From Chitinophaga niabensis (lineage in GTDB: Bacteria > Bacteroidota > Bacteroidia > Chitinophagales > Chitinophagaceae): a stretch of DNA of 64,000 nt. This document shows, one piece after another, positions 27,210-40,286 of this stretch; the first letter of the stretch is position 1, and every line of letters starts with the position of its first letter. The stretch lies in assembly GCA_017849435.1 (NCBI GenBank), contig JAFIGY010000020.1, forward strand, positions 183,425 to 247,424, in the 5' to 3' direction. A model generated the notes under the pieces. It worked only from the letters and a program-made list of their open reading frames with translations, was not told where the DNA came from and made no database searches. The translations under genes were made by a program, and so were the position numbers.

Positions 27210-27282
27210 GCGGAAATAGCTCATTTGGTAGAGCATCAGCTTCCCAAGCTGAGGGTGGCCGGTTCGAGCCCGGTTTTCCGCT
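27210..27282 (+). tRNA. tRNA-Gly (anticodon CCC)
   Basis: The cloverleaf is complete: acceptor GCGGAAA/TTTCCGC, D stem GCTC/GAGC, anticodon stem TCAGC/GCTGA with loop TTCCCAA (anticodon CCC), T stem GCCGG/CCGGT with loop TTCGAGC, and discriminator T. CCA is not encoded. Confidence 0.97.
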
Positions 27283-27287
27283 CTGAG

Positions 27288-27320
27288 AAAGAGGATGTAT
27301 CAAAAGTACATCCTCTTTTT
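27288..27320 (+). terminator. Terminator after tRNA-Gly
   Basis: AAAGAGGATGTA (27288-27299) and TACATCCTCTTT (27307-27318) form a perfect 12-bp stem with a 7-nt loop, followed by TT and ATTTG. Confidence 0.88.
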
Positions 27321-27628
27321 ATTTGGGTACCGGTATGAACGCAGGCGACCGTTTTAATTTCGATACCTGCTTTTTTTGTTGTAGCCTCCTGCCAATATCC
27401 TCTCTGTTCTGTCAATTTTCTTTTGCGCAGTATTACCGCATCCAATTGAAAAATTGTTTAAATTAGTTACAGAAAACCACATCATAATGATAAACCAGTT
27501 TGTTACCCACGTTCTGCCCAACCTCGTAATTCTACCAATGATCAGTCAATTTATTTCATGTTGATCCCAGGGCGCAAAAAATAAAGTGTAAAAAAAATTT
27601 TGTAACAATTAACCCATAGCTTAATTTT
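27321..27628. other. Gene-free AT-rich 308-bp region before the TAC-like cassette
   Basis: I see no credible gene. A 69-residue antisense frame over the tRNA end is a known kind of artefact. A short plus-strand frame from 27487 has no features. The promoter-like pair at 27599-27629 is at its right end. AT-rich composition begins here and continues through the next three genes. Confidence 0.55.
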
Positions 27629-27629
27629 G
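27599..27629 (+). promoter_or_regulatory. Bacteroidota-type promoter of the TAC-like cassette
   Basis: TTTG (27599-27602), a 19-nt spacer and TAATTTTG (27622-27629) match the -33/-7 consensus well. It would place the mRNA start just inside the predicted GTG start, which leaves the toxin start uncertain. Confidence 0.55.
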
Positions 27630-28048
27630 TGAAAGAAAGAATCGCGTATATCATCCACGCCAAAGAAGAACTCAGGCGCTTTATCTGTATCGATGCGCTG
27701 GAAGAAGAAAGAATTCTGAAATTCATTCAGGAAGAACCGGCCAGAACAAAGAAATTTCAGCATATCGTTGGCCTGATCTTAAACAACATCAAGAACACGG
27801 ATCTTTATGACAAAGAAAACATCAACAAGGCCATCAACGATGTTTATGCGATAAAAATGTTTAAGGGAGGAAGCAACATTCGCTTGTACTGCAAACAGGT
27901 ATCCGGTGCTAATGGTACTTTTTACGTAATTGTCAGTGAATTGCTGGAAAAGAAGAAGAGCGCCAAAAATACATCCGGGATCAAATCTATCATCGAAAAA
28001 GTTCATAATTATGAATATCAAATCAAAGAATATCCAGCCCAACAATAA
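27629..28048 (+). CDS. RelE/HigB-like toxin of a TAC-like module
   Basis: The 139-residue frame starts at GTG 27629; an in-frame stop lies just upstream and no ATG is available nearby. The C-terminal half fits the RelE/HigB (Gp49-like) ribosome-dependent mRNA interferase pattern: DVYAIKMFKGGSNIRLYCKQ, then a core strand FYVIVSELLEKKKSAKN, a helix and a terminal EKVHNYEYQI. The invariant-looking Arg in NIRLY and the Lys-rich KKKSAKN loop suit this family, although catalytic residues cannot be proven by eye. It overlaps the next gene by 38 bp. AT-rich composition and position just after a tRNA suggest transfer. Confidence 0.75.
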   Translation: MKERIAYIIHAKEELRRFICIDALEEERILKFIQEEPARTKKFQHIVGLILNNIKNTDLYDKENINKAINDVYAIKMFKGGSNIRLYCKQVSGANGTFYVIVSELLEKKKSAKNTSGIKSIIEKVHNYEYQIKEYPAQQ

Positions 28049-28490
28049 CCCCTGGGAAGCCATTGTTAAACCGCAAACCAGCGCCGGGCAAATCGAGCAT
28101 GATACGCAGATGCTCGCCTTTAAGTTCCTGGGAGAGATACAAACCTGCCAGGAAATATTAGGCATCAACCGGAAAGAATTAGCCAAAAAGGTCGGAACCT
28201 CGGCAAGCTATATCACCCAATTGTACAGAGGTGATAAACTTCCCAATCTCGAGATACTGACAAAGATGGCGCATGCGCTCAATATTGAATTCAAAATTTC
28301 GGTAAAGGCCGAAAAAGGGGAAACGGTATGCACCGCGGAGGAAGCATTTTTGAAAAGCATACATAAATTCAGCGTCCCGGGAACATCCGTATGGGTAAGA
28401 TATAATCTGACTCCTTCGCAAGATGTTTATAAGGAAGCTTTGAATTTAAAAAATATCAGTAGCAATGAAATTGAAACCATCCCCGCTTGA
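28011..28490 (+). CDS. XRE/HigA-like antitoxin with C-terminal extension
   Basis: The product is 159 residues from ATG 28011. Residues about 40-95 form an XRE helix-turn-helix (CQEILGINRKELAKKVGTSASYITQLYRG, then LPNLEILTKMAHALNIEF). The remaining 65 residues (TAEEAFLKSIHKFSVPGTSVWVRYN and beyond) are extra compared with minimal HigA proteins. By analogy with mycobacterial HigA1, this tail may be a chaperone-addiction (ChAD) segment recognised by the SecB-like protein encoded next. Overlaps with both neighbours (38 bp and 26 bp) imply translational coupling. It should repress its own promoter. Confidence 0.85.
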   Translation: MNIKSKNIQPNNNPWEAIVKPQTSAGQIEHDTQMLAFKFLGEIQTCQEILGINRKELAKKVGTSASYITQLYRGDKLPNLEILTKMAHALNIEFKISVKAEKGETVCTAEEAFLKSIHKFSVPGTSVWVRYNLTPSQDVYKEALNLKNISSNEIETIPA

Positions 28491-28950
28491 ACTAAAGGAC
28501 CTCTCTGTAATTCAATGTGAATACAGGTTTATACCAATTGAGCGAAGTACTCAGCTCAGTGATCTTGCAGGAAAATATACTTACGATATTGATTTTGCCA
28601 TTAAAGGCAATGATGACACATTCATCACCATTTTTACAAAAATCAGTATCAATAATATCAGGGATACTAAACCACTCCCGGGTTATTCCATATTTGCTGA
28701 ATGTGCCGGCGTTTTTTCTCTTTCAGAGAAAAATATATCGGCTGAAGACCGCCAGGCTTTAATAGTTAACAGTGGTGTTTCAATAGTGATAAATTATCTC
28801 AGAAATTTTGTTGCGAATATGACATCGAATTTCCCTGCGGGTAAACTCTGGATACCGTCCTTAAATCTAAGGGAATTAATATTATCCAAATCGCAACAAA
28901 GGGACGACAGTAAAAAAACAATCCGAAAAGCAGGAAAAAAGAAACCATAA
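28465..28950 (+). CDS. SecB-like chaperone of a TAC-like module
   Basis: The 161-residue product is close to SecB length (155 in E. coli). The order of elements matches the SecB fold: strands LELKDLSVIQCEYRF, KYTYDIDFAI and ITIFTKISINN, then SIFAECAGVFSLSE. A long helix NYLRNFVANMTSNFPAG and a closing WIPSLNLRELI correspond to the SecB C-terminal [24 protein letters not shown] region. The tail is basic (KKTIRKAGKKKP). Its ATG lies inside the antitoxin gene. Location after a toxin-antitoxin pair points to a dedicated TAC chaperone protecting the antitoxin rather than general export. Identification is by pattern only. Confidence 0.78.
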   Translation: MKLKPSPLELKDLSVIQCEYRFIPIERSTQLSDLAGKYTYDIDFAIKGNDDTFITIFTKISINNIRDTKPLPGYSIFAECAGVFSLSEKNISAEDRQALIVNSGVSIVINYLRNFVANMTSNFPAGKLWIPSLNLRELILSKSQQRDDSKKTIRKAGKKKP

Positions 28951-28952
28951 AA

Positions 28953-28975
28953 AGCCGGCACGTGCCTGCTCATTT
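28953..28975 (+). terminator. Possible terminator of the TAC-like operon
   Basis: AGC...GGCACGTGCC...GCT forms a short imperfect hairpin followed by CATTTTTG, immediately after the SecB-like stop. Confidence 0.45.
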
Positions 28976-28978
28976 TTG

Positions 28979-30163
28979 TCATTGCACAAACTGTATCTCC
29001 CCGGAACTCTGCAGCCCCCGCTCATCCGTCACGGACAGAAACCACATCTTTGTACCCACCGGAGGTAACGTTGCACGCACCTCCCTACCCCGCAGATCCG
29101 CTTTCACACTTTGCCATACCTTATCCTTCAAAGCAGTAGCGGTATCGGTGGTGTAGTGCAGGAAAGCTGCAGTCAATGGCACAGCGGATGATACCCTCGC
29201 CCGCACGTCATTCTTATACCTGAAAGTTACCTGTACCCTTGGCAGCGACGGCGTATGCGCCAGGTAACTGTTAATAAAAGCAAATATTTCGTCATTCGCC
29301 CAACCTGCGTGGTGACTGTGTTTAAGACCGGGTTTGATGGAGAGGTAGTGATCCTTCACCAACCCGTAAGTTTTCGCGTAGCTGTCCAGATAAAAATGGC
29401 CATCGTTCGTACCGTTCACAAAAAGCACCGGCATCCTCGTTTTCCCGATGTACCGGGATGGATCATATTGTTGCACCCAGGTCTGCCGCTGCGCACTATC
29501 CAACAACAACAATCCTTTCCGCATAGAACTGTTCTCCAGCAGAAAACCACAACCGTATACCGGTACGGCGACTCTATACCGGTCATCCACGCCTGCCATC
29601 AGACAGGTGATAATACCGCCCCAGCTGATCCCTGTGATGGCCGTGCGGCTGCCGTCCACGCCCGGCATACTGCGTAAAAGATTATGTGCAAGTATCACAT
29701 CCGCCACCGCCTGGAACATCCATTGCTCATCCAATGCCGGCGTGATTGTGAAATAAGGCGTTTCGCCACCGGGTTCCTCGAAACCGTTGTCCATATGCTT
29801 CTTACCCGGACCATTCCCCCGCAGATCCATGGCAATGGCAGCATATCCTTTACGCGCCCACATCAGCGCCCATTCCCTGAAAGCCGTGCCCCCTCCCCCA
29901 TGCACCAACACTACCGCCGGAAGATCATGGTCCAGTGACCTGTTTCCAGCGATCGTTCCCGGCGAGGCATAGTAGGCAAATACCGGCTGGGCATGTCCTT
30001 TATAAGACAACCCTTCATAAACGATCCCCAGCGCTGAATCAGCGCTCAAAGTTTTATAAGCGGGTACTTTATAGATATTTTCGATATCCCAGATAGTGCC
30101 GCGTATCTGGGCTTGGGCAGGTAAAGCGAACACAAGTGCGATCAGGAGCCGGTAAAAATGCAT
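28979..30163 (-). CDS. Secreted alpha/beta hydrolase (acetyl-xylan-esterase/dienelactone-hydrolase-like)
   Basis: The product is 394 residues from ATG 30163, where the signal peptide starts (HFYRLLIALVFALPAQA, cleavage before QIRG). The alpha/beta-hydrolase fold shows the oxyanion strand VLVHGGGGTAFREWALMWARKGYAAIAMDLRGNG and nucleophile elbow TGISWGG. The acid VLFVNGTNDGHFYLDSYA and His in LKHSHHAGW complete the triad. The C-terminal 70 residues form a beta-rich extra domain. It probably removes acyl groups from a polysaccharide or ester in the periplasm. It lies 43 bp after hemN and may be a distal operon gene. Confidence 0.88.
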   Translation of the reverse strand: MHFYRLLIALVFALPAQAQIRGTIWDIENIYKVPAYKTLSADSALGIVYEGLSYKGHAQPVFAYYASPGTIAGNRSLDHDLPAVVLVHGGGGTAFREWALMWARKGYAAIAMDLRGNGPGKKHMDNGFEEPGGETPYFTITPALDEQWMFQAVADVILAHNLLRSMPGVDGSRTAITGISWGGIITCLMAGVDDRYRVAVPVYGCGFLLENSSMRKGLLLLDSAQRQTWVQQYDPSRYIGKTRMPVLFVNGTNDGHFYLDSYAKTYGLVKDHYLSIKPGLKHSHHAGWANDEIFAFINSYLAHTPSLPRVQVTFRYKNDVRARVSSAVPLTAAFLHYTTDTATALKDKVWQSVKADLRGREVRATLPPVGTKMWFLSVTDERGLQSSGEIQFVQ

Positions 30164-30206
30164 AAAAGGAAAATACACCATAATCCCGGTTTATGCAAAC
30201 GTTTGT

Positions 30207-31565
30207 TTATATCGCTTTGCTGAACAGTTCTGTTTGCGGAAGATTCCTCCATAACCGCGCGTCAAAAGCCATGCAGATATTGCGGATGAAAGGTTTTCCT
30301 TTTTCCGTCACCCTTACCTTTCCCGGCAACACTTCCACCAAACCATCTCTTTCCGGTTCCTGCAACCGCTGCAAACCTTCTGTGATGGCATCACACTGCG
30401 TGTCCTGCCGCGTCCAGGATGTTTCGAACCGGCACATGAGGGATTGAATATGCCTGCGCAGCAAACGATCTTCCTGATTGAGCAGATGCCCGCGCACAAC
30501 GGGCAATAGCCCCGCATTCACCAGTTGCTGATAAGCTCCCACCTGTTTTTCATTTTGCGCATACGCCCTTCCGCAATCGCTGATGGAACTGGCACCCAGT
30601 CCCAATAAGAAAGAAGTATGCACCACCGTGTATCCCATGAAGTTGCGATGCAATCTGCCATTGTTATAAGCCTGAAAAAGCTCGTCCTGTGGAAGCGCAA
30701 AGTGATCCATACCCACATCCTTATAACCGTTGGCGATGAACAGGGACCTGCCGAGTTCATACAACGCTCTTTTCTCATCATCCGCCGGAAGATCCGCCTC
30801 TGTATAATGGCGCTGGCCGGTCCCCCTGACCCAAGGCACATGCGCATAACTGTAAAACGATATCCGGTCCGGGCGCAGGTCCATCACCTGCTCCGCTGTA
30901 GACCACATACTGGACACGGTTTGCAAGGGCAGCCCATACACAAGATCAAAATTGATGGAAGAAAAACCCGCAGCACGCGCTTCTTCTGTCACACGAGCCA
31001 CCTGTTCATAAGGTTGTATGCGATGAATGATCTCCTGTACGCGGAAATCAAAATCCTGAATGCCAAAGCTCACCCGGTCGAATCCCAGGGAGCGCAGGGT
31101 TTTCAGATGTCCGGAGGTGGTATTCCCGGGATGCCCTTCAAAACTCAAAGCCGCATCCGGCAACAGTTCCGCATCTTTATAAATACTTTTTAATAAGAGC
31201 GATAAATTCTCTTCACTGAAAAATGTAGGCGTGCCACCCCCCAGATGCAACTCGCGAATACGGGGCTTCTCCCCGAAAAACTGCAGGTAAAGCGACCATT
31301 CTTTCAGCAAGGTTTGTATATAAGGTAACTCCACGCCATGATTAACCGTGATGTGCTTATTGCAACCGCAGTAAGTACATAGCTGTTCACAAAAGGGAAG
31401 ATGGATATAAAGACTGATCCCTTCACGGGCATTCACTTCCCGGAATGATGCCTGCATCAGATCCTGCCAGTCCATCCGGGAAAATTTTCCATTGTCCCAG
31501 TAAGGCACAGTGGGATAACTGGTATAGCGCGGTGCGGCTGTATTATATTTTTTGATGAGGTTCAT
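30207..31565 (-). CDS. hemN: Oxygen-independent coproporphyrinogen III oxidase (HemN)
   Basis: The 452-residue radical-SAM enzyme converts coproporphyrinogen III to protoporphyrinogen IX without oxygen. The cluster motif is HLPFCEQLCTYCGCNKHI (CxxxCxxC plus adjacent Cys). Further family motifs are LHLGGGTPTFFSEENL, FDRVSFGIQDFD and YGLPLQTVSS. The length is normal for true HemN. It is 5 bp downstream of safE in the cbb3 cluster, so heme supply and heme-copper oxidase assembly are linked, and both are expected to be needed at low oxygen. Confidence 0.95.
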   Translation of the reverse strand: MNLIKKYNTAAPRYTSYPTVPYWDNGKFSRMDWQDLMQASFREVNAREGISLYIHLPFCEQLCTYCGCNKHITVNHGVELPYIQTLLKEWSLYLQFFGEKPRIRELHLGGGTPTFFSEENLSLLLKSIYKDAELLPDAALSFEGHPGNTTSGHLKTLRSLGFDRVSFGIQDFDFRVQEIIHRIQPYEQVARVTEEARAAGFSSINFDLVYGLPLQTVSSMWSTAEQVMDLRPDRISFYSYAHVPWVRGTGQRHYTEADLPADDEKRALYELGRSLFIANGYKDVGMDHFALPQDELFQAYNNGRLHRNFMGYTVVHTSFLLGLGASSISDCGRAYAQNEKQVGAYQQLVNAGLLPVVRGHLLNQEDRLLRRHIQSLMCRFETSWTRQDTQCDAITEGLQRLQEPERDGLVEVLPGKVRVTEKGKPFIRNICMAFDARLWRNLPQTELFSKAI

Positions 31566-31570
31566 GTGTC

Positions 31571-32263
31571 TTAATGTTTATGACAGCATTGTTCGTGCTG
31601 TGGTTGCATGATCGGACTGATATAAGGAATCCCGAGGTTCATACCGCGCATGATGAGCAACAGGGCCATCGCGATCACCACGAAAGGCAGTACTTTCTTT
31701 GCCTGGCTGCGCACACGCAGGCTTACGAGATGGCTGAACCACGTCACCGCGGCCATGGCAGGCAGTGTACCTGCCCCGAATGCAGCCATGAAAAGCGCGC
31801 CTTTCCAGATACTTCCTGTGGCAACGGCCCCGGCAATCCCCAGGTATACCAATCCGCAAGGCAATAAACCATTGAAAAAACCTATCCCGAACAACGTACT
31901 GAAACGGCGGCGTTGCAGCAGACTGCCCAGCACTCTTTTCAACGGCCCGGTTATCCCGTTCGGGATTACTCCCTTGCCCATGTATTGCAAGAGCACCATC
32001 ATCAGCAACAGACCTCCGAGACCGATAGACAACCATTGCTGCATCCCACCGAGGTAAAACTGCCGCCCCAGCCAGCCGAAAAGCATGCCCATCAGTGCGT
32101 AGGCGCTGATGCGACCGATATTGTACAACAGGATGCCCGTCATCTTCCTCCAGCCGTTCAGATGTTGCACCGGCAACGTCAGCGCAATAGGGCCGCACAT
32201 GCCGATGCAATGGAAACTGCCCAGGAATCCGAGGGACAGGGCGGATAGTATAAGGACAATCAT
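31571..32263 (-). CDS. Sulfite exporter TauE/SafE family membrane protein
   Basis: The product is 230 residues from ATG 32263, whose codon overlaps the ccoH stop (ATGA). It has about six hydrophobic helices and the conserved LGSFHCIGMCGPIALTLP and NGLLPCGLVYLGIAG Cys-containing repeats of the DsbD-like/SafE group. The C-terminus is His/Cys-rich (PQHEQCCHKH), suggesting metal binding. In cbb3 clusters such proteins are thought to help copper handling or thiol transfer during oxidase maturation; this is inferred from context. Confidence 0.9.
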   Translation of the reverse strand: MIVLILSALSLGFLGSFHCIGMCGPIALTLPVQHLNGWRKMTGILLYNIGRISAYALMGMLFGWLGRQFYLGGMQQWLSIGLGGLLLMMVLLQYMGKGVIPNGITGPLKRVLGSLLQRRRFSTLFGIGFFNGLLPCGLVYLGIAGAVATGSIWKGALFMAAFGAGTLPAMAAVTWFSHLVSLRVRSQAKKVLPFVVIAMALLLIMRGMNLGIPYISPIMQPQHEQCCHKH

Positions 32264-32700
32264 GGCTGTATGAATAGTTGTGTTTCCTGGAAATAGGGTT
32301 TTCCGTCCGTTTCCCATTGCAGCTTCACCTGGTAGTTCCCCGGTTGCAGCCGCCTGCGGTCAATCTGCTGACGGCCTTGTGCATCCGGCTGCAAGGGCAC
32401 CCTGATATCTTTCCCTGCATCGGACGGACGGTAGAACAATACATACCCCTGCAAAGGACGCTGGTGCAATTCTTCCGGAAAGCTGATCTCCACCTGTTCC
32501 CCGGGCTGCGTGACCACTACGGGAGCGGATAACCGGTTAGCGTTCTGCCGCCCGTCAATAACCTGCTGGTACTTCAGTTCTTCCGCATAGTAATCCGCCG
32601 TTACCATATCGATCTTCTTCCGCATGCTGCCGATCACCAGTGTGAGTATACCGGCCGCAAACAGCGTGAATACGATAATGATCTTGTGTCCCCAGTTCAT
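32260..32700 (-). CDS. ccoH: FixH/CcoH family cbb3 oxidase assembly protein
   Basis: The 146-residue protein has one N-terminal membrane helix (IIIVFTLFAAGILTLVIGSM), followed by the family segment DMVTADYYAEELKYQQVIDGRQNA. A periplasmic beta domain then ends in FQETQLFIQP. FixH/CcoH proteins assist assembly or stability of cbb3 oxidase. It sits between ccoG and safE with 18 bp to ccoG and an ATGA overlap with safE. Confidence 0.92.
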   Translation of the reverse strand: MNWGHKIIIVFTLFAAGILTLVIGSMRKKIDMVTADYYAEELKYQQVIDGRQNANRLSAPVVVTQPGEQVEISFPEELHQRPLQGYVLFYRPSDAGKDIRVPLQPDAQGRQQIDRRRLQPGNYQVKLQWETDGKPYFQETQLFIQP

Positions 32701-32718
32701 AATGATCGTTTTTGAATG

Positions 32719-34107
32719 TTATGGATGTACGGGGCCGAGGAATGTTGTTCTCAAAACACCTCTCTGCCTGCCGCCTTCGTATATGCCTATCCGTAATGCC
32801 GTTTTTCGTTGATGGATCATCGTTCGCGGCAGAACGAGGAAAAAAGTGCCTTCTCCTTGTTCTCCACCTTTCACCAGCACTTCATGTGGTCCGATCATTT
32901 CGATCTTTCCCTGCGCGTTCAGCAATTCCAGCTGTAGATGCAGCGTTTCCGGCGTTTTGTTGACCAGTTTGATACGATAGAGGTTCGAAACGCTGTCTGT
33001 TCCCCGCTCCTGGTACAGCATACCCGCCGTGCGAATAATGTTCCCGCTTACAGGCTGGCGACTGGCCAGCAGGTAGACGATCCCTCCCAGCAAAACCACC
33101 AGTACTGATGCATAAACCTTCAGTCGCGCCGTAAAACGAAGCGGGGCGCCTTTTGCAATCCCTTCTTCTGAAGCATAACGAATCAGATCTTTCGGCAGGC
33201 CGGTTTTTTCCATCATGAAATTGCAGGCATCGATACAAGCTGTGCAGTTCACACATTCCAGCTGCGTACCATTTCGTATATCTATTCCCGTTGGGCATAC
33301 TTTCACACACTGCATGCAATCGATACAATCTCCCGCTGTCCGTTCCTCATTCTTCCGGAACAGGCTCCGCGGCTCTCCTCTTTTGTAATCATACGCCACC
33401 ACTACGGAGTGCTTATCCAACAACACCCCTTGCAGGCGGCCATACGGACAAACAGTGGTACAAACCTGCTCCCGGAAAAAGGCGAAAACACCGTAGAACA
33501 CGCCGGAAAAAAGCAGTATGGTCACAAAGCCGCCAATGTGAAGGGATACGGGTTCCCGGATGATTGCTATCAGCTCATCCGATCCGATGATGTACGCGAG
33601 GAACAGATTCGCTACAAGGAAAGCGGTTGCATAGAAGATCAGGTGTTTCAATACTTTCTTGCGGATCTTCTCTGCGTTCCAGGGCGCTTTGTCCAGCAGT
33701 CGCTGCGCAGGTGCATCTCCTTCTATCCAGTATTCAATCCGGCGGAAGAGGAATTCCATGAAGATGGTTTGCGGACAGGCCCATCCGCAGAACAGCCTGC
33801 CAAAAGCCATCGTGAACAGGGCGATGAACAACACAAAAGCCAGCATCGCCAATCCGAAAAGGAAAAAATCCTGCGGCCAGAAAATGGTGCCGAACAGGAT
33901 GAACCGGCCTTTTACAACATTGAACATAAACAGGGGCCTGCCGTTCACATGCATAAACGGCAGGATTGCGAAAATGGCGAAGTACACATAACTGAGCAGG
34001 CTCCTGTACCGGTATAACCTGCCCGACGGGCGTTTCACATACACCCATTTGCGTTTCCCCTGCTCATCAACGGTGGCTATACTATCTCTGAATGACGCTT
34101 CTTCCAT
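32719..34107 (-). CDS. ccoG: Cytochrome c oxidase accessory protein CcoG (RdxA/FixG)
   Basis: The 462-residue membrane Fe-S protein has several helices in the first 230 residues. The ferredoxin motifs are CIDCMQCVKVCPTGIDIRNG and CVNCTACIDACNFMM, followed by an Ig-like C-terminal domain (FixG_C). The FCGWACPQTIFMEFLFRRIEYWIEG motif is typical. CcoG is thought to reduce Cu(II) for delivery to the CcoN copper site. Spacing to ccoP is 15 bp. Confidence 0.95.
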   Translation of the reverse strand: MEEASFRDSIATVDEQGKRKWVYVKRPSGRLYRYRSLLSYVYFAIFAILPFMHVNGRPLFMFNVVKGRFILFGTIFWPQDFFLFGLAMLAFVLFIALFTMAFGRLFCGWACPQTIFMEFLFRRIEYWIEGDAPAQRLLDKAPWNAEKIRKKVLKHLIFYATAFLVANLFLAYIIGSDELIAIIREPVSLHIGGFVTILLFSGVFYGVFAFFREQVCTTVCPYGRLQGVLLDKHSVVVAYDYKRGEPRSLFRKNEERTAGDCIDCMQCVKVCPTGIDIRNGTQLECVNCTACIDACNFMMEKTGLPKDLIRYASEEGIAKGAPLRFTARLKVYASVLVVLLGGIVYLLASRQPVSGNIIRTAGMLYQERGTDSVSNLYRIKLVNKTPETLHLQLELLNAQGKIEMIGPHEVLVKGGEQGEGTFFLVLPRTMIHQRKTALRIGIYEGGRQRGVLRTTFLGPVHP

Positions 34108-34122
34108 GATGGTTCCTTTTTA

Positions 34123-35166
34123 TTACTCTGTCTCAGGCTGCCCCTGCGCCTCCTTTGCATTCGGCGGATTAGAGCCCTGAATGCTCCGGATAAAGCTTGC
34201 CAGCTGTGCGATCTGCTTCGGAGAAAGGTCTTCCTGCCAGGATCGCATGCCTTTATCCGGCACACCATACTTGATAGTTTTGAATATCTCGTTGATCTTT
34301 CCGCCATGCAGCCAGAATTTGTCCGTCAGGTTGGGACCAACCATTCCTTCTCCTTTCGTACCATGACAAGCTGCGCAGTTCGTACCGAACAGTTTCTTTC
34401 CTTCTTCCAGTTCGCCGGCATCGGTCAACAGCTGCACACTATTCTCATCAATGTTATTGGCCGCCTTTTTCAGGTACTCTTCCTTTGCTTCCGCAGCTTT
34501 GGTATTGGCAATGGCCAGCTCTTCCAATTGTGAAGGAGCGCTGTGCGCCACGTGGTACGTCCACAGGTAGATAACGGCAAAGGCTATACTGAAATAGAAG
34601 CCCCATTTCCACCAGGGCGGCGTGGGATTGTCCAGCTCCCGTATCCCGTCGAAATCATGTCCCATATCTTCCGACAATTCAGTAGCGGCATCCACGGTTT
34701 TCGTCTTGTTAAATCTTTCCCACCAGCTGGCAGTCTGCTGCTTTACCTTCGTTTTCCTTTTGGACTGTATGCCCAGTAATATCCGCAGCGTCCGCAACAG
34801 GAACAGCAACACGAGCAGTTCCAGTGCAATCACGGAGATCATCAGGTAAAAGGCCACCGGGGAAAGGCCACTGATAGTATGAACCGTTTCCACTGCATCC
34901 GCGGCTTTCGCCGGGAATGCGGAGAAACCCAGTACAGTGATGATACCGATCATGAGTGCTTTATCCTGTCCGTTCTTCATCTTCTCCCGGTATACCTCCA
35001 TCGCGCCCAGTACGGTATTTCCGAGTATGCCAATGGCGATCAGCAGCCCGGCTATCACTGCCAGCAATACCTGCGCGGTGCTGTTCACCAGTATGGAAGG
35101 CGCCTCGGGCTGAGCCTGTGCGGCAAGCGGAAGTGTACAGAGTATGTAAAAAAATATGCGCTTCAT
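34123..35166 (-). CDS. ccoP: cbb3 oxidase subunit III (CcoP), mono-heme
   Basis: The product is 347 residues from ATG 35166 (MKRIFFYILCTLPLAAQA). The N-terminal half has two to three membrane helices (VLLAVIAGLLIAIGILG, VAFYLMISVIALELLVLLFLL). The FixP_N segment follows (DFDGIRELDNPTPPWWKWGFYFSIAFAVIYLWTYHV). The C-terminal domain has one heme-c motif (GTNCAACHGTKGEG, with a distal Met in DKGMRSW). Classical CcoP has two hemes, so this is a mono-heme form. It donates electrons from soluble cytochromes to CcoNO. Confidence 0.93.
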   Translation of the reverse strand: MKRIFFYILCTLPLAAQAQPEAPSILVNSTAQVLLAVIAGLLIAIGILGNTVLGAMEVYREKMKNGQDKALMIGIITVLGFSAFPAKAADAVETVHTISGLSPVAFYLMISVIALELLVLLFLLRTLRILLGIQSKRKTKVKQQTASWWERFNKTKTVDAATELSEDMGHDFDGIRELDNPTPPWWKWGFYFSIAFAVIYLWTYHVAHSAPSQLEELAIANTKAAEAKEEYLKKAANNIDENSVQLLTDAGELEEGKKLFGTNCAACHGTKGEGMVGPNLTDKFWLHGGKINEIFKTIKYGVPDKGMRSWQEDLSPKQIAQLASFIRSIQGSNPPNAKEAQGQPETE

Positions 35167-35176
35167 ACGATGCTTT

Positions 35177-35356
35177 TTATGCGTTTGGTGTTTCATCCTG
35201 GTCGAGCGGGATACGACTGATATGTTCCACGAGCCGTTTATCGGTCCGCAATGCCCATATAGCCGCCACTGTGAAGAAGATGGTAAAGATGAGCAGGGAT
35301 GCCATCGGGTAGAACCCTACTCCCTCAATGTTCTTGAGATAATGAATGAATTTCAT
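35177..35356 (-). CDS. ccoQ: CcoQ-like small subunit
   Basis: This is a 59-residue frame between ccoP and ccoNO. It has one membrane helix (GFYPMASLLIFTIFFTVAAIWAL) and a polar C-terminal tail (RTDKRLVEHISRIPLDQDE). Size, position and topology match CcoQ, which stabilises cbb3 oxidase. ATG 35356 lies 11 bp after the ccoNO stop. Confidence 0.82.
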   Translation of the reverse strand: MKFIHYLKNIEGVGFYPMASLLIFTIFFTVAAIWALRTDKRLVEHISRIPLDQDETPNA

Positions 35357-35367
35357 GACGATCGTTT

Positions 35368-37500
35368 TTATTCTTTCATGGCCGTTTTCGCCGGTTCTGC
35401 CTTAATATCCTTTCCAAGCCGTTGCAGATAAGCGATGAGCGCAACGATCTCACGGTCGGGCAGTATGTCCAGTTTGTCTTTTTTCAACGATGTGGCAATG
35501 GATGTTGCCTGTTGGTCAAGGTCTGCGTTGGCCTGCGTTTCGTATCCTTCGGGATAGGGCACACCCAGCTTCCGCATGGCGTTGATCATGGCCGGTGTGC
35601 GGCTTTTATCCAGCCGGTCGTCCAGCAGCCAGGGATAAGAAGGCATGATGGAGCCGGGGGACATGGAAGTGGGATCGAGCATGTGAGAAAAATGCCAGCT
35701 GTCCGGGTACTTCCCGCCTACTCTTGCCAGATCGGGCCCGGTGCGTTTGGAACCCCACTGGAACGGGTGATCATAAACAAACTCTCCTGCCTTGGAGTAC
35801 TCGCCATATCGCGCCACTTCATCCCGGAAAGGCCGGATCATCTGGGAGTGACAGGTATAGCAGCCCTCGCGTATGTAAATGTCTCTCCCGTGTAACTCCA
35901 GCGGGGTGTAGGGTTTCACACTAGAGATAGTAGGAACGTTGCTCCTGACGAGGAAAGTGGGGATCAGTTCAAACATCCCCCCGATACCTACCACAATCAG
36001 GCTGAATATCATCAATTGCACCGGTCTGCGCTCCATCCAGTTATGCCAGTGTGTTTTTCCATGCACGGTGATCACTTTCGGCAGGGGTGCGGCTTCTGCG
36101 GGTTCGTTGGCGATGAAAGTACCGCGGCGTACCGTTCTTGTAATGTTCACGAGCATCAGTATCACACCGGAGATATACAATATTCCGCCCAATCCGCGCA
36201 GTGCATACATCGGTATGATGGTAGCTACAGTTTCCAGGAACTGGTATTTCAACTGTCCCGCATCCGTGAACTCTTTCCACATCATACTTTGTGTGAATGC
36301 AGCCCAGTACATCGGTATCACATAGAAGATGATCCCCAGGGTACCCAGCCAGAAGTGTGTGTTCGCCCATTTGCGGGAGTATAAAGTTGTAGAGAAGATG
36401 CGCGGGATCAGCCAGTAGAGGATACCGAAGGTGAGGAATCCATTCCAGCCCAGCGCTCCCACGTGTACGTGCGCGATCGTCCAGTCAGTATAATGGCTCA
36501 CCGCATTCACGTTCTTCAGGGAAAGCATCGGTCCTTCAAAAGTGGCCATCCCGTAACAGGTGAGCGCTACCACAAAGAATTTCAGGATCGCATCCTCCCG
36601 CACACGATCCCATGCGCCGCGTAGCGTGAGCAAACCATTCAGCATCCCGCCCCAGGAAGGCGCGATCAGCATAATAGAGAACACCGTGCCCAGCGACTGT
36701 GCCCATTCCGGCAAAGCCGTATAGAGCAGGTGGTGCGGGCCGGCCCAGATGTAAATAAAGATCAGCGCCCAGAAGTGAATGATAGACCATCTATAGGAAT
36801 AAACAGGCCTGTTGGCCGCTTTCGGCACGAAATAATACATCAGTCCCAGGTAAGGCGTGGTCAGGAAAAAGGCCACCGCATTGTGACCATACCACCATTG
36901 CACCAGTGCATCCTGCACGCCTGCATACCAGCTGTAGCTTTTAAACAGTGAAACGGGCAGTTCAAATGAATTGATGATATGCAGCATCGCCACTGCCACC
37001 CAGGTTCCGATATAGAACCAGATGGCAACATACAGATGGGATTCCCGTCTGCGCAAAATGGTGCCCAGCATGTTAGCGCCGAAGATGAGCCATACCACGG
37101 TAATGGCTATATCAAAAGGCCATTCCAGCTCCGCATATTCTTTGCCGGTGGTATATCCCGCCAGCAACGTCAGCGCTCCGCCCGCGATGATCGCCTGCCA
37201 GCCCCAGAAATGCAGTTTGCTCAGCAGATCGCTGAACATGCGGGCCTTGCACAACCGCTGCAGTGAATAGTACACGCCCATGAAAATACCGTTGCCCACA
37301 AAAGCGAAGATCACGGCATTCGTGTGAACCGGCCGGAGGCGCCCGAAAGTAGTGGGTGCGTAATTCAGGTTCAATGCGGGAAATGCCAGGGATAATGCGA
37401 TCCATAGACCGGCCAGCATCCCCACCAGGCCCCAGAACATCGTGGCATAGGCAAACCATTTGACGGTGCGGTTATCGTATGCAAACTTTTCCAATGACAT
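35368..37500 (-). CDS. ccoN: Fused cbb3 oxidase subunits I and II (CcoN-CcoO)
   Basis: The 710-residue protein joins two subunits. Residues 1-470 are the heme-copper catalytic subunit CcoN with 12 or more helices and metal-ligand His residues (LRPVHTNAVIFAFVGNG, QWWYGHNAVAFFLTT, WAGPHHLLYTALP, IAHVHVGALGWNGF). The C-terminal part is CcoO: a membrane helix (RPVQLMIFSLIVVGIGGMFEL) and one heme-c site GCYTCHSQMIRPFRDEVARYG, then TGPDLARVGGKYPDSWH. N-O fusion is common in Bacteroidota. The complex reduces oxygen with high affinity. Confidence 0.96.
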   Translation of the reverse strand: MSLEKFAYDNRTVKWFAYATMFWGLVGMLAGLWIALSLAFPALNLNYAPTTFGRLRPVHTNAVIFAFVGNGIFMGVYYSLQRLCKARMFSDLLSKLHFWGWQAIIAGGALTLLAGYTTGKEYAELEWPFDIAITVVWLIFGANMLGTILRRRESHLYVAIWFYIGTWVAVAMLHIINSFELPVSLFKSYSWYAGVQDALVQWWYGHNAVAFFLTTPYLGLMYYFVPKAANRPVYSYRWSIIHFWALIFIYIWAGPHHLLYTALPEWAQSLGTVFSIMLIAPSWGGMLNGLLTLRGAWDRVREDAILKFFVVALTCYGMATFEGPMLSLKNVNAVSHYTDWTIAHVHVGALGWNGFLTFGILYWLIPRIFSTTLYSRKWANTHFWLGTLGIIFYVIPMYWAAFTQSMMWKEFTDAGQLKYQFLETVATIIPMYALRGLGGILYISGVILMLVNITRTVRRGTFIANEPAEAAPLPKVITVHGKTHWHNWMERRPVQLMIFSLIVVGIGGMFELIPTFLVRSNVPTISSVKPYTPLELHGRDIYIREGCYTCHSQMIRPFRDEVARYGEYSKAGEFVYDHPFQWGSKRTGPDLARVGGKYPDSWHFSHMLDPTSMSPGSIMPSYPWLLDDRLDKSRTPAMINAMRKLGVPYPEGYETQANADLDQQATSIATSLKKDKLDILPDREIVALIAYLQRLGKDIKAEPAKTAMKE

Positions 37501-37520
37501 AAGACTGTTGATTGTTTGAT

Positions 37521-37682
37521 TTATTTATTCTGATCCGTTTCTTTTTTTTCTTCAAAGAGGATGCGGTGCGCCGGTGAATAATCGTCTTCCATCTGCCCGG
37601 TTTTGACCGACCAGCAGAATGCGGCCAGGAATATGAGTGCCACGGTAAGACTGGCGCCCAGTAAGAGGATTATAACGCTCAT
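37521..37682 (-). CDS. ccoS: CcoS-like assembly protein
   Basis: This 53-residue frame between ccoI and ccoNO has one membrane helix (VIILLLGASLTVALIFLAAFCWSVKTG) and an acidic tail with the family-typical GQMEDDYSPAHRILFEE. CcoS is needed for metal insertion into cbb3 oxidase. The stop lies 20 bp before the ccoNO start. Confidence 0.9.
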   Translation of the reverse strand: MSVIILLLGASLTVALIFLAAFCWSVKTGQMEDDYSPAHRILFEEKKETDQNK

Positions 37683-37747
37683 GTCTATACGTTTTTTAAT
37701 ACTGCTGTAAAGTTACTTCCATGTACAGGGAGATATCATGACCACCC

Positions 37748-40150
37748 TCAATCCTTTCGGTGATCCTTGTCAGCCTTTCGCAGCTTCGCCGCCGCCCGCC
37801 AGCTCATGCACCAGGTCAGCAGGATGATGCTGATGGAGCTGGCCGGCATCAGTATGGCAGCGATCACAGGCGAAAGTTTCGCCTGCACCGCGAAGAAGAG
37901 CCCGGTTATATTGTAGGTTAGCGAATACACGAAGCTGATCATAATGATGCGTTTGTTGGCGCGGCACAGCCGGATGAAATATGGCAGCAGGAGCAGCTGC
38001 CTGCCATCGAGGATAGCATCGCTGGCCGGCGTGAAATTGTTTGTGTCATCCGTCACCGAAATACCGATATCGCTTTGTTTGAGGGCGCCGGCGTCATTCA
38101 GACCATCACCGATCATCATCACTTTGCGGCCTTCCTGTTGTAATTGCAGCACGTAATCCAGCTTATCACCCGGCTGCTGGCGGAAGCGCAATTCCGCTCC
38201 CGGTCCCATCAGGCGGCGTAACACGGGCGCTTCCCGGTCATTGTCGCCGGACAGCAGCGCCAATTGATATCGTTCCCGCAATTGTCTCAGCAGCGTATCA
38301 ATGCCTTCGCGATAGCTTTGATGTACGCTGAAGTGCCCCTTGATTTTTCCATTCACGGAAAGGTATACGGCGCTTCCGCGCGCCGTCTCTTCATGGAGGG
38401 CGCCGGTGAATGTTGCGTTGCCGAGTTTCATGGCGAGTCCGTTCACGGAGCCGCTGATCCCCTGCCCTTCCACATTCCGGAAATCTTTCACAGGTTGCCG
38501 GAAGGTTCCGCAGTATCCGGCTAAGGCTTCGCTGAGGGGGTGAGTGGATTGTGCCACGAGGGAGCCGAGCGCTTCCCGTTCTTCCCAGGTAAGCAAACCT
38601 CTGTGAGATATCGTCACTCCAGTTCGTTTATCCGTGAGCGTACCTGTTTTATCAAATACGATCGCATCCGCTTCCGCCATTCGCTCTATGGCGCCGGCAT
38701 CCCGCAGGTAAAAGCGGTGTTTGCCCAGCAGCCGCAGCATATGGGCATTTGTGAAGGAGCTGGCAAGCAGTAATGCGCAGGGACAAGCCACGATCAGGAT
38801 AGCGGTCACGGCGGGCCAGATGTTGGCCGCATCATAAACGCCCCACCATACCGCCGTCATCGCGGCAATCATGAGTACCACCCATGTGAAGTTCCGGGCC
38901 AGCAGGTGAACGAAGGAAACGGACTTCTTCTCCTCCTCTTCCCGCAGCTCCTGGCGATTCCAGAGGCCGGTCAGGTAACTCTGCGCTACTTCTTTGATGG
39001 TGAGCAGCTCGATATTCCCTTCCGTCTGCCGCCCGCCTGCATAAATGATCTCTCCGGCGGAACGTTCCACCGGCGCCGATTCCCCGGTCACAAAGCTGTA
39101 ATCGATCAGCGCTTTCCCTTTTACAAGGATCCCGTCCGCGGGTACGAGTTCGTTGTTATGGATCAGCAGGGTTTGTCCGGCTTTGATCTCCGGCAGCGGA
39201 ACGGCCTTCTCTTTTTTGTCTTCGATAACGGTAACGGCTATGGGGAAATAAGACTTGTAATCACGGTCGAAAGAAAGGCCTTTGTAAGTTTTCTCCTGGA
39301 GGATGCGGCCGGCCAGCATGAAGAACACGATGCCCGTCATGGCATCGAAATAACCCGGACCGGCGCCCGTGAGGATGTCGATGAGGCTGCGGGTGAAGGT
39401 GACCACGATGGCCAGTACGATCGGCACATCGATATTCAGGAAACCATGTTTCAGTCCGCCCCATGCGGAACGGTAAAAGGCCTGGGCGCTATAAAGAAAT
39501 ACCGGCAGCGCCAGCAACAGGTTTAGATAGCGGAAGAGTATCGGGTCGATGTCACCCGGACTGGAAAAGTATTCCGGGAAGCTGAGCAACATTACATTTC
39601 CGAAACAGAACCCCGCAACACCAATCTGATAGATCAACCTGCGATCCACCCGCGGCGCCTTTTGCTGCAGGTCCTGCAAACTGAGGTAAGGCTCATACCC
39701 GATGCTGGTCATCGTTTCCGCCACTTTACGCAGAGTGGTTTCACCCTGGCGGAACACGATCCGCACCTCCTTCCGAACGAAATTCACCTGCACCCGCTCC
39801 ACTCCTGCATCCAGCCGATGCAGGCTTTCGAGCAGCCAAATGCAGGAACTGCAATGAATATGGGGAACATAGAAATTGACATGCGTATGGGTATCGTCGC
39901 GGTACTGAATCAGCTGTTGTTGCAGGCGGGCATCGTCAAGACAGGCAAATTTATCCGCCCGCACCGGCAGGCGCCAGGAAACGCCAGGCTGTTCATTGAG
40001 CTGGTAATAAGTGCACAGGTCATTTTCTTCCAGTATCTCGTAAACGAGCCTGCAGCCTTCGCAGCAAAAACATTTGTCATGTGCAACGATCCTGGTGGTG
40101 AGGAGTGTTTCGCCGCAATGATAGCAGCAATTATCAGTGGCAACATCCAT
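37748..40150 (-). CDS. ccoI: Copper-translocating P-type ATPase CcoI/FixI
   Basis: The product is 800 residues from ATG 40150 (MDVATDNCCYHCGE). An N-terminal Cys-rich metal-binding region (NCCYHCGETLL, CFCCEGCRLVYEIL) and an HMA-like domain (HIHCSSCIWLLESLHRL) precede eight helices. The CPC motif is in VACPCALLLASSF, the phosphorylation site is DKTGTLTDKRTG, and the hinge is GDGLNDAGALKQSD. It exports Cu(I) to the periplasm for oxidase assembly. It is the first gene of the cbb3 cluster, 65 bp ahead of ccoS. Confidence 0.94.
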   Translation of the reverse strand: MDVATDNCCYHCGETLLTTRIVAHDKCFCCEGCRLVYEILEENDLCTYYQLNEQPGVSWRLPVRADKFACLDDARLQQQLIQYRDDTHTHVNFYVPHIHCSSCIWLLESLHRLDAGVERVQVNFVRKEVRIVFRQGETTLRKVAETMTSIGYEPYLSLQDLQQKAPRVDRRLIYQIGVAGFCFGNVMLLSFPEYFSSPGDIDPILFRYLNLLLALPVFLYSAQAFYRSAWGGLKHGFLNIDVPIVLAIVVTFTRSLIDILTGAGPGYFDAMTGIVFFMLAGRILQEKTYKGLSFDRDYKSYFPIAVTVIEDKKEKAVPLPEIKAGQTLLIHNNELVPADGILVKGKALIDYSFVTGESAPVERSAGEIIYAGGRQTEGNIELLTIKEVAQSYLTGLWNRQELREEEEKKSVSFVHLLARNFTWVVLMIAAMTAVWWGVYDAANIWPAVTAILIVACPCALLLASSFTNAHMLRLLGKHRFYLRDAGAIERMAEADAIVFDKTGTLTDKRTGVTISHRGLLTWEEREALGSLVAQSTHPLSEALAGYCGTFRQPVKDFRNVEGQGISGSVNGLAMKLGNATFTGALHEETARGSAVYLSVNGKIKGHFSVHQSYREGIDTLLRQLRERYQLALLSGDNDREAPVLRRLMGPGAELRFRQQPGDKLDYVLQLQQEGRKVMMIGDGLNDAGALKQSDIGISVTDDTNNFTPASDAILDGRQLLLLPYFIRLCRANKRIIMISFVYSLTYNITGLFFAVQAKLSPVIAAILMPASSISIILLTWCMSWRAAAKLRKADKDHRKD

Positions 40151-40286
40151 GGTGCGAAAGTACCGGTGGCGCAAGGGGTGGCGAATGACCGGCATCAATT
40201 TGTGCACTGATTCCTGTCAAAGGTCCCGTCATTGTTTCCTCCAGGCAGCGCTTGAAAATACCCTGTCATTCTGTCATTTTTTTCCT

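Follow-up and report, generated by a model that had tools for sequence, protein, structure and literature searches.

A probable toxin-antitoxin-chaperone operon of the HigBA-SecB type, with a remote HigB-like toxin, in Chitinophaga niabensis

Locus layout, operator and surroundings

We analysed a window of 64,000 nucleotides of Chitinophaga niabensis DNA. Three overlapping AT-rich genes lie on its + strand at 27629-28950, 345 bases after a tRNA-Gly(ccc) gene that ARAGORN places on the same strand (27210-27283). The first gene (27629-28048, GTG start) encodes a toxin candidate of 139 aa, assigned by alignment and profiles as remotely Gp49/HigB-like. The second (28011-28490, ATG start) encodes an XRE-type antitoxin of 159 aa, recognised by alignment and by its match to Pfam HTH_3 (E = 7.2e-10). 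Alignments set off its C-terminal tail, approximately residues 98-159 (28302-28487), a putative chaperone-addiction region ending in ETIPA. The third (28465-28950, ATG start) encodes a SecB-like chaperone of 161 aa, recognised with Pfam and PADLOC models, alignment and a profile search of the PDB. The toxin and antitoxin genes overlap by 38 bases, and the antitoxin and SecB-like genes by 26. All three reading frames are intact, with a GC content of 37-42% against 47-57% in GC-profile windows outside the three genes. The sequence-only reading had described three overlapping AT-rich genes after a tRNA-Gly, and the coordinates, both overlaps and the base composition bear it out. Judged by sequence, toxin, antitoxin and SecB-like gene form a single operon-like cluster.

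A near-palindrome, AATTAACCCATAGCTTAATT (27607-27626, core 27609-27624), adjoins the GTG start of the toxin gene and is presumed to be the site of autoregulation by the XRE antitoxin. Bacteroidota-like promoter elements can be read from the sequence on the + strand (27599-27629): TTTG (27599-27602), 19 bases, and TAATTTTG (27622-27629), the last overlapping both the operator and the GTG start codon. The TAnnTTTG consensus is reported at -12 to -5 (PMC9723704); with this placement transcription would start inside the first codons, so that either a leaderless mRNA or the use of a different box is possible. A repeat search found an imperfect inverted repeat after the last gene (28944-28979), a possible terminator.

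The tRNA-Gly gene borders a variable stretch (27284-40260), so called because the DNA there differs among the fetched relatives. The tRNA gene is present in four of the five and absent in L065, the DNA after it differs, and in three (L064, L066, L067) the flanks corresponding to 25-27 kb and 40-43 kb of the window lie closer together. No integrase was seen among the window ORFs read, and the tRNA gene was rejected as an integration site, since no long copy of its 3′ end turned up close to the far side of the stretch. Searches of plasmids, phages and viral contigs with the toxin or chaperone gave no match. Inspection by eye of the ORFs listed next to the window copy turned up no recognisable defence gene. 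Elsewhere, one TAC (toxin-antitoxin-chaperone) locus (L011:653-1938) is flanked by hsdM and hsdS, within a type I restriction-modification locus. Some of the neighbouring genes were picked by eye and then scanned; besides hsdM/hsdS in L011 this gave pieces of type ISP systems in L095 and L099, two loci that are on the two-gene side or cut, and a weak endonuclease match beside L019.

Relatives and protein families

The triad with both overlaps is kept in five other Chitinophagaceae loci (6/6 when aligned with the window), and the antitoxin/chaperone overlap is 26 bases in all six. Identities to the window proteins in the five loci are 44-58% for the toxin, 31-45% for the antitoxin and 31-43% for the chaperone, the C. 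tropicalis toxin being aligned over its shorter open stretch only. At that locus (L002:2406-2828) a frame break separates the conserved GTG from the remaining toxin gene, while the antitoxin and chaperone frames are open; the break is either a sequencing error or a loss of the toxin. The operator core, TTAASCNATAGSTTAA, is identical in the six close loci except at its free base, and the exact core pattern has a single match in the 5.0-Mb host genome.

The SecB-like protein was found in 3 of 99 genomes, the host included. A chaperone profile search matched 5 of 294 genomes of the family, four of them with a full triad; further triads came from an uncultured Chitinophaga MAG (L003) and a Flavihumibacter MAG (L007), for a total of six. 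The fifth matching genome (G324) combines a CmdTAC-type locus (L013) with a SecB-like gene that stands alone (L012). The lone gene (L012:1486-1938) has no recognisable adjoining toxin or antitoxin and no Pfam or PADLOC match. Triads were also found in other families (L015, L019, L104). The sequence-only reading had raised a Bacteroidota-specific variant, which fits the loci found; outside the phylum this draws on a single scan with a three-row chaperone alignment, which gave three loci, all in Chitinophagaceae, and the same scan with the window SecB-like protein as sole query gave none.

By homology the third protein is a member of the SecB family. The window protein itself falls below the cut-offs of the general models: Pfam SecB (PF02556) gives E = 0.0075 and 16.6 bits against a cut-off of 26, and NCBIfam secB gives E = 0.0075-0.018. 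It matches the PADLOC model PD-T4-9_C at E = 9.7e-6. The orthologue in L011 reaches 37.3 bits with PF02556 (E = 3e-9), above the cut-off of 26, so the PF02556 search proposed in the sequence-only reading succeeded with this orthologue and fell short with the window protein. Three of the six close chaperone rows match Pfam SecB at E <= 1, and 9 of 14 TAC chaperones match the PADLOC CmdTAC chaperone model at E <= 0.01. We then built a profile from 14 Bacteroidota TAC chaperones, the window protein first. Among 177,635 PDB sequences it matched three at E <= 1, all of them SecB (E = 3.3e-7, 1.4e-5 and 1.7e-5), which together with the L011 result upholds the SecB-like assignment made from the letters. 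PDB searches with a profile of the six close rows, or with L011 alone, did not return SecB.

Some third genes lie further off. Those of L108 (543-1022) and L020 (2146-2589) match PADLOC PDC-M64C and have no direct match with the 14-row profile; in a profile comparison they reach a probability of 55% and a score of 31.8, against a maximum of 15.4 in 30 shuffles, and are probably very diverged SecB-like proteins. A 128-aa gene (L107:2257-2643) occupies the SecB position after a window-type toxin-antitoxin pair; it gave no match with the SecB-like profile.

The window toxin alone has no family match better than E = 0.08 in Pfam, NCBIfam, PADLOC or PHROGs. Neither it nor the five other aligned toxins gave a match to Gp49 (PF05973), and the best family member, the L019 toxin, reaches E = 0.0033, below the Pfam cut-off. 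One of six family members matches ISP1_C, a family of another kind, at E = 2.8e-4, which we take for chance. The toxins of three other Bacteroidota TACs, L024, L026 and L030, are Gp49 above the Pfam cut-off, and these supply the link. An HMM of window-type toxins matches L020 (3e-6) and L024 (2.8e-5), both above all 2,600 shuffled decoys; with 20 single Gp49 sequences only one exceeds the decoys. The reverse HMM, Gp49 plus HigB, finds the window toxin at E = 0.026, barely beating the best of 1,800 decoys (0.048). In a profile-profile comparison with Gp49 plus the three TAC HigBs (L024, L026, L030), the toxin profile scores 33.6 (probability 69%, E = 4.4e-5), against a maximum of 16.6 in 50 column shuffles; with Gp49 lacking these three the comparison is not significant (E = 0.11, or 0.023 with the roles swapped). 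PDB searches with toxin profiles gave chance-level matches only, none relevant. Since the link is significant only by way of the three TAC HigBs, we call the window toxin a remote relative of Gp49/HigB (RelE superfamily) by profile and place it outside the Pfam family itself. The RelE/HigB-like toxin of the sequence-only reading thus holds as a remote profile relationship, for a protein that no library family covers.

The dependence on three intermediates, and the poor match to every library family, leave room for a toxin of another fold or target in the same TAC layout, as with CmdT, rather than a HigB-like interferase; TAC toxins are reported to vary (PMC11618068). We consider this possible and rather unlikely. 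The profile link to Gp49 and the TAC HigBs stands well above its shuffles; moreover, one arginine never varies in the toxin family (Arg85 in the window protein), and a loop rich in lysine falls close to the Gp49 core loop. In known systems, catalytic lysines are named in a HigB-TAC (PMC9098466), and the TAC HigB of E. coli O112ab:H26 is placed in the Gp49 family (PMC11980606). The operator also argues against another fold. It is common to the window-type loci and to L024 and L030, whose toxins are Gp49, and was not found upstream of L020, L025-L027 or L029.

Forms with and without the chaperone

Searches turned up the toxin family in 7 of 395 genomes of the phylum, 9 of 92 genomes of one family (f44) and 11 of 395 genomes of the class, the last count including the host genome and repeats. 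Loci with a SecB-like gene include L015, L019 and L104, and 13 loci are without one, meaning no match to the 14-row profile at E <= 10 within approximately 1.5 kb, or less, on either side. Allowing one mismatch, 16 of 16 family loci compared, eight two-gene forms among them, carry the operator core at the start of the toxin gene or immediately ahead of it; a strict pattern finds it in four of seven further loci and not in L103, L106 or L109. In a toxin tree of 19 rows, drawn from the 24 loci with a readable antitoxin (L020, L094, L096, L098 and L109 are absent from it), chaperone loci and two-gene loci are intermixed. Good support is limited to 3 of its 16 inner branches, and long branches come together, so the tree cannot give the number of chaperone gains or losses.

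The sequence-only reading had given the XRE antitoxin an extra C-terminal tail; we find one of some 60-62 residues. By hand count on the alignment it has about 62 aa in the window protein, whereas the tails of eight two-gene loci from the f44 family measure about 23-31 aa. The antitoxin thus has a C-terminal extension of the TAC kind, yet the antitoxins of L105 and L106 are long (145-149 aa) and stand beside no SecB-like gene, so tail length was discarded as a mark of chaperone dependence. Beyond the HTH region the residues invariant in the six close antitoxins are Tyr140 and the final IPA, with Phe94 at the edge of that region.

The antitoxin ends in two small residues in nine of nine loci with a clear SecB-like gene (IPA six times, AMAG, LEAA and NIAA) and in 1 of 13 without (Fisher p = 2e-5). 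These loci are not independent: the antitoxins ending in IPA and those of f44 each seem to represent a single clade, and when C-terminal types are counted instead (our own count) the contrast becomes approximately four against five and is much weaker. Of 27 loci, the comparison covers the 24 whose antitoxin could be read, which excludes L099, L110 and L111; L020 and L108 were set aside. The antitoxins of these two end in KKM and LIQ despite their probable diverged SecB-like third gene, so the small-residue end is not a universal rule. Another argument against such a rule comes from L013 and L028, both CmdTAC-type, whose small genes end in FTP and FLF rather than LAA. In the six close loci the IPA end overlaps the KPSPLE start of the chaperone, and each could therefore force the other. 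Three bases of this overlap vary: at two of them the change leaves the antitoxin sequence as it is and affects the chaperone (L007, L010), and at the third, in the window, the antitoxin changes and the chaperone does not. In L015, L019 and L104 the genes overlap by just a few bases and the small-residue ends are still kept.

These counts bear on another account, in which toxin and antitoxin form an ordinary HigBA-like pair working alone, and the SecB-like protein is a general export chaperone whose gene happens to lie in their operon. The 13 loci with the same toxin family and no detected SecB-like gene would suit such a pair. An export role may moreover be vacant in the host: a Pfam SecB search of its genome at E <= 0.001 came back empty, missing even the window protein, and 4 of 14 control genomes did give a match. 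All tested TAC chaperones are reported to complement an E. coli secB mutant (PMC5105189). We nevertheless find this account improbable. The distinct antitoxin end accompanies clear SecB-like genes and is mostly absent elsewhere, the antitoxin and chaperone genes overlap, and all ten SecB-like matches in a 395-genome sample of the phylum lie beside a toxin and an antitoxin (that of L028 presumed), although this linkage is favoured because the search profile was built from TAC chaperones.

That the locus is a decaying mobile remnant without present function is very improbable: several related toxin genes are interrupted (C. tropicalis, L094, L096) or partial (L109) and the triad is rare (4/294 family genomes), but the window frames are open, and in the orthologues, at 31-58% identity, both the operator and the overlaps are preserved.

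Proposed mechanism and comparison with known systems

With considerable confidence we read the window locus as a complete TAC operon of the HigBA-SecB type whose toxin belongs to an unrecognised branch. The sequence evidence points this way: the genes present and their conservation, the homology of antitoxin and chaperone and the remote one of the toxin, the operator, and the antitoxin tail with its end. The TAC-like interpretation of the sequence-only reading stands as well: the triad is conserved, its third protein falls in the SecB family and its toxin is remotely related to Gp49/HigB.

From this reading we infer toxicity, RNase activity, repression, degradation, chaperone binding and a phage trigger. 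The XRE antitoxin would bind the palindrome at the toxin start, repressing the operon, and would also block the toxin, which as a remote Gp49/HigB relative would most likely cut mRNA on the ribosome. The chaperone-addiction tail of the antitoxin would end in a small-residue signal of the ClpXP type (IPA), and the SecB-like protein would hold this tail and so spare the antitoxin. Were a phage structural protein, for example, to divert the chaperone, the antitoxin would be degraded and the toxin would stop translation. For known TACs, binding of the antitoxin tail by the SecB-like protein is reported to spare the antitoxin both aggregation and proteolysis, a competing client freeing the toxin (PMC5105189, PMC6377645, PMC11618068), and phage structural proteins are reported to draw the chaperone away in CmdTAC and HigBAC (PMC11618068, PMC11980606). 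The module is probably an anti-phage or stress switch.

A tentative broader picture, which we hold well short of the reading of the locus itself, is of a Bacteroidota stock of toxin-antitoxin modules with a toxin outside the searched libraries, in which chaperone addiction may have been gained or lost more than once while the operator was kept; the SecB forms, with ClpXP-type degron tails, would be phage-protein sensors, and the others plain two-gene modules. Chaperone addiction has reportedly been moved to ordinary toxin-antitoxin pairs by grafting of tails in the laboratory (PMC5105189). The present toxin family shows both states in nature, with the chaperone and lacking it, so that comparing and swapping natural parts could put this evolutionary step to the test. 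SecB-controlled modules would also extend to a toxin branch missed by annotation libraries, in a phylum where the SecB-like genes found are mostly linked to toxin-antitoxin genes (every match in the phylum sample; L012 is alone in the family sample).

The nearest model is HigB1-HigA1-Rv1957 of M. tuberculosis, described with the same order of toxin, XRE antitoxin with a C-terminal extension, and SecB-like protein (PMC9098466, PMC6377645). Its toxin is close to Gp49-like HigBs, whereas the divergence of the window toxin puts it beyond the reach of Pfam Gp49. The window tail is not conserved with that of HigA1. Its stretch SVWVRYNL (W-x-R-Y) recalls the HigA1 contacts W108, R110 and Y114, the Trp, Arg and Tyr that Rv1957 is reported to contact (PMC6377645), and is itself not conserved in the five other close antitoxins. 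The phage-sensing HigBAC of E. coli shares the HigBA plus SecB-like architecture with the window locus (PMC11980606), and the lambda major tail protein is reported to trigger one such system (PMC11980606). The window locus differs in its toxin branch.

CmdTAC (PD-T4-9) resembles the window locus in the chaperone, which matches PD-T4-9_C, and in the small-residue end of the antitoxin, which recalls the reported LAA degron of CmdA (PMC11618068). CmdT is an ADP-ribosyltransferase, and a PADLOC search at E <= 1 returned nothing for the window toxin; identity with CmdTAC was ruled out, the window having no toxin match to PD-T4-9_A. Such a match does occur in L013 and L028. These two CmdTAC-type loci of Bacteroidota (L013:1446-2672 and L028:891-2120) match both PD-T4-9_A and PD-T4-9_C, with the toxin first in L013 and last in L028.

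The PADLOC candidate system PDC-M64 combines a toxin and an XRE antitoxin, with a SecB-like gene in addition in L025, L027 and L029. The window and L011 antitoxins match it weakly; its toxin models match L025 and L029 and leave the window toxin unmatched. L025, L027 and L029 are TAC-like clusters with a different toxin of 159-161 aa (PDC-M64B at E = 1e-43 in L025 and 2e-41 in L029) and antitoxins ending in RLAS, RLTG and RLAG. Some PDC-M64 systems thus look like TACs.

Among the titles and abstracts listed by searches of the open literature on TAC and SecB-like proteins, chaperone addiction and Chitinophaga toxin-antitoxin systems, none described this family; Sala 2013 and Mets 2024 may list such loci. 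The TAC architecture is already known from the systems above; the toxin branch, the common operator and the natural occurrence of forms that have the chaperone and forms that lack it appear to be new.
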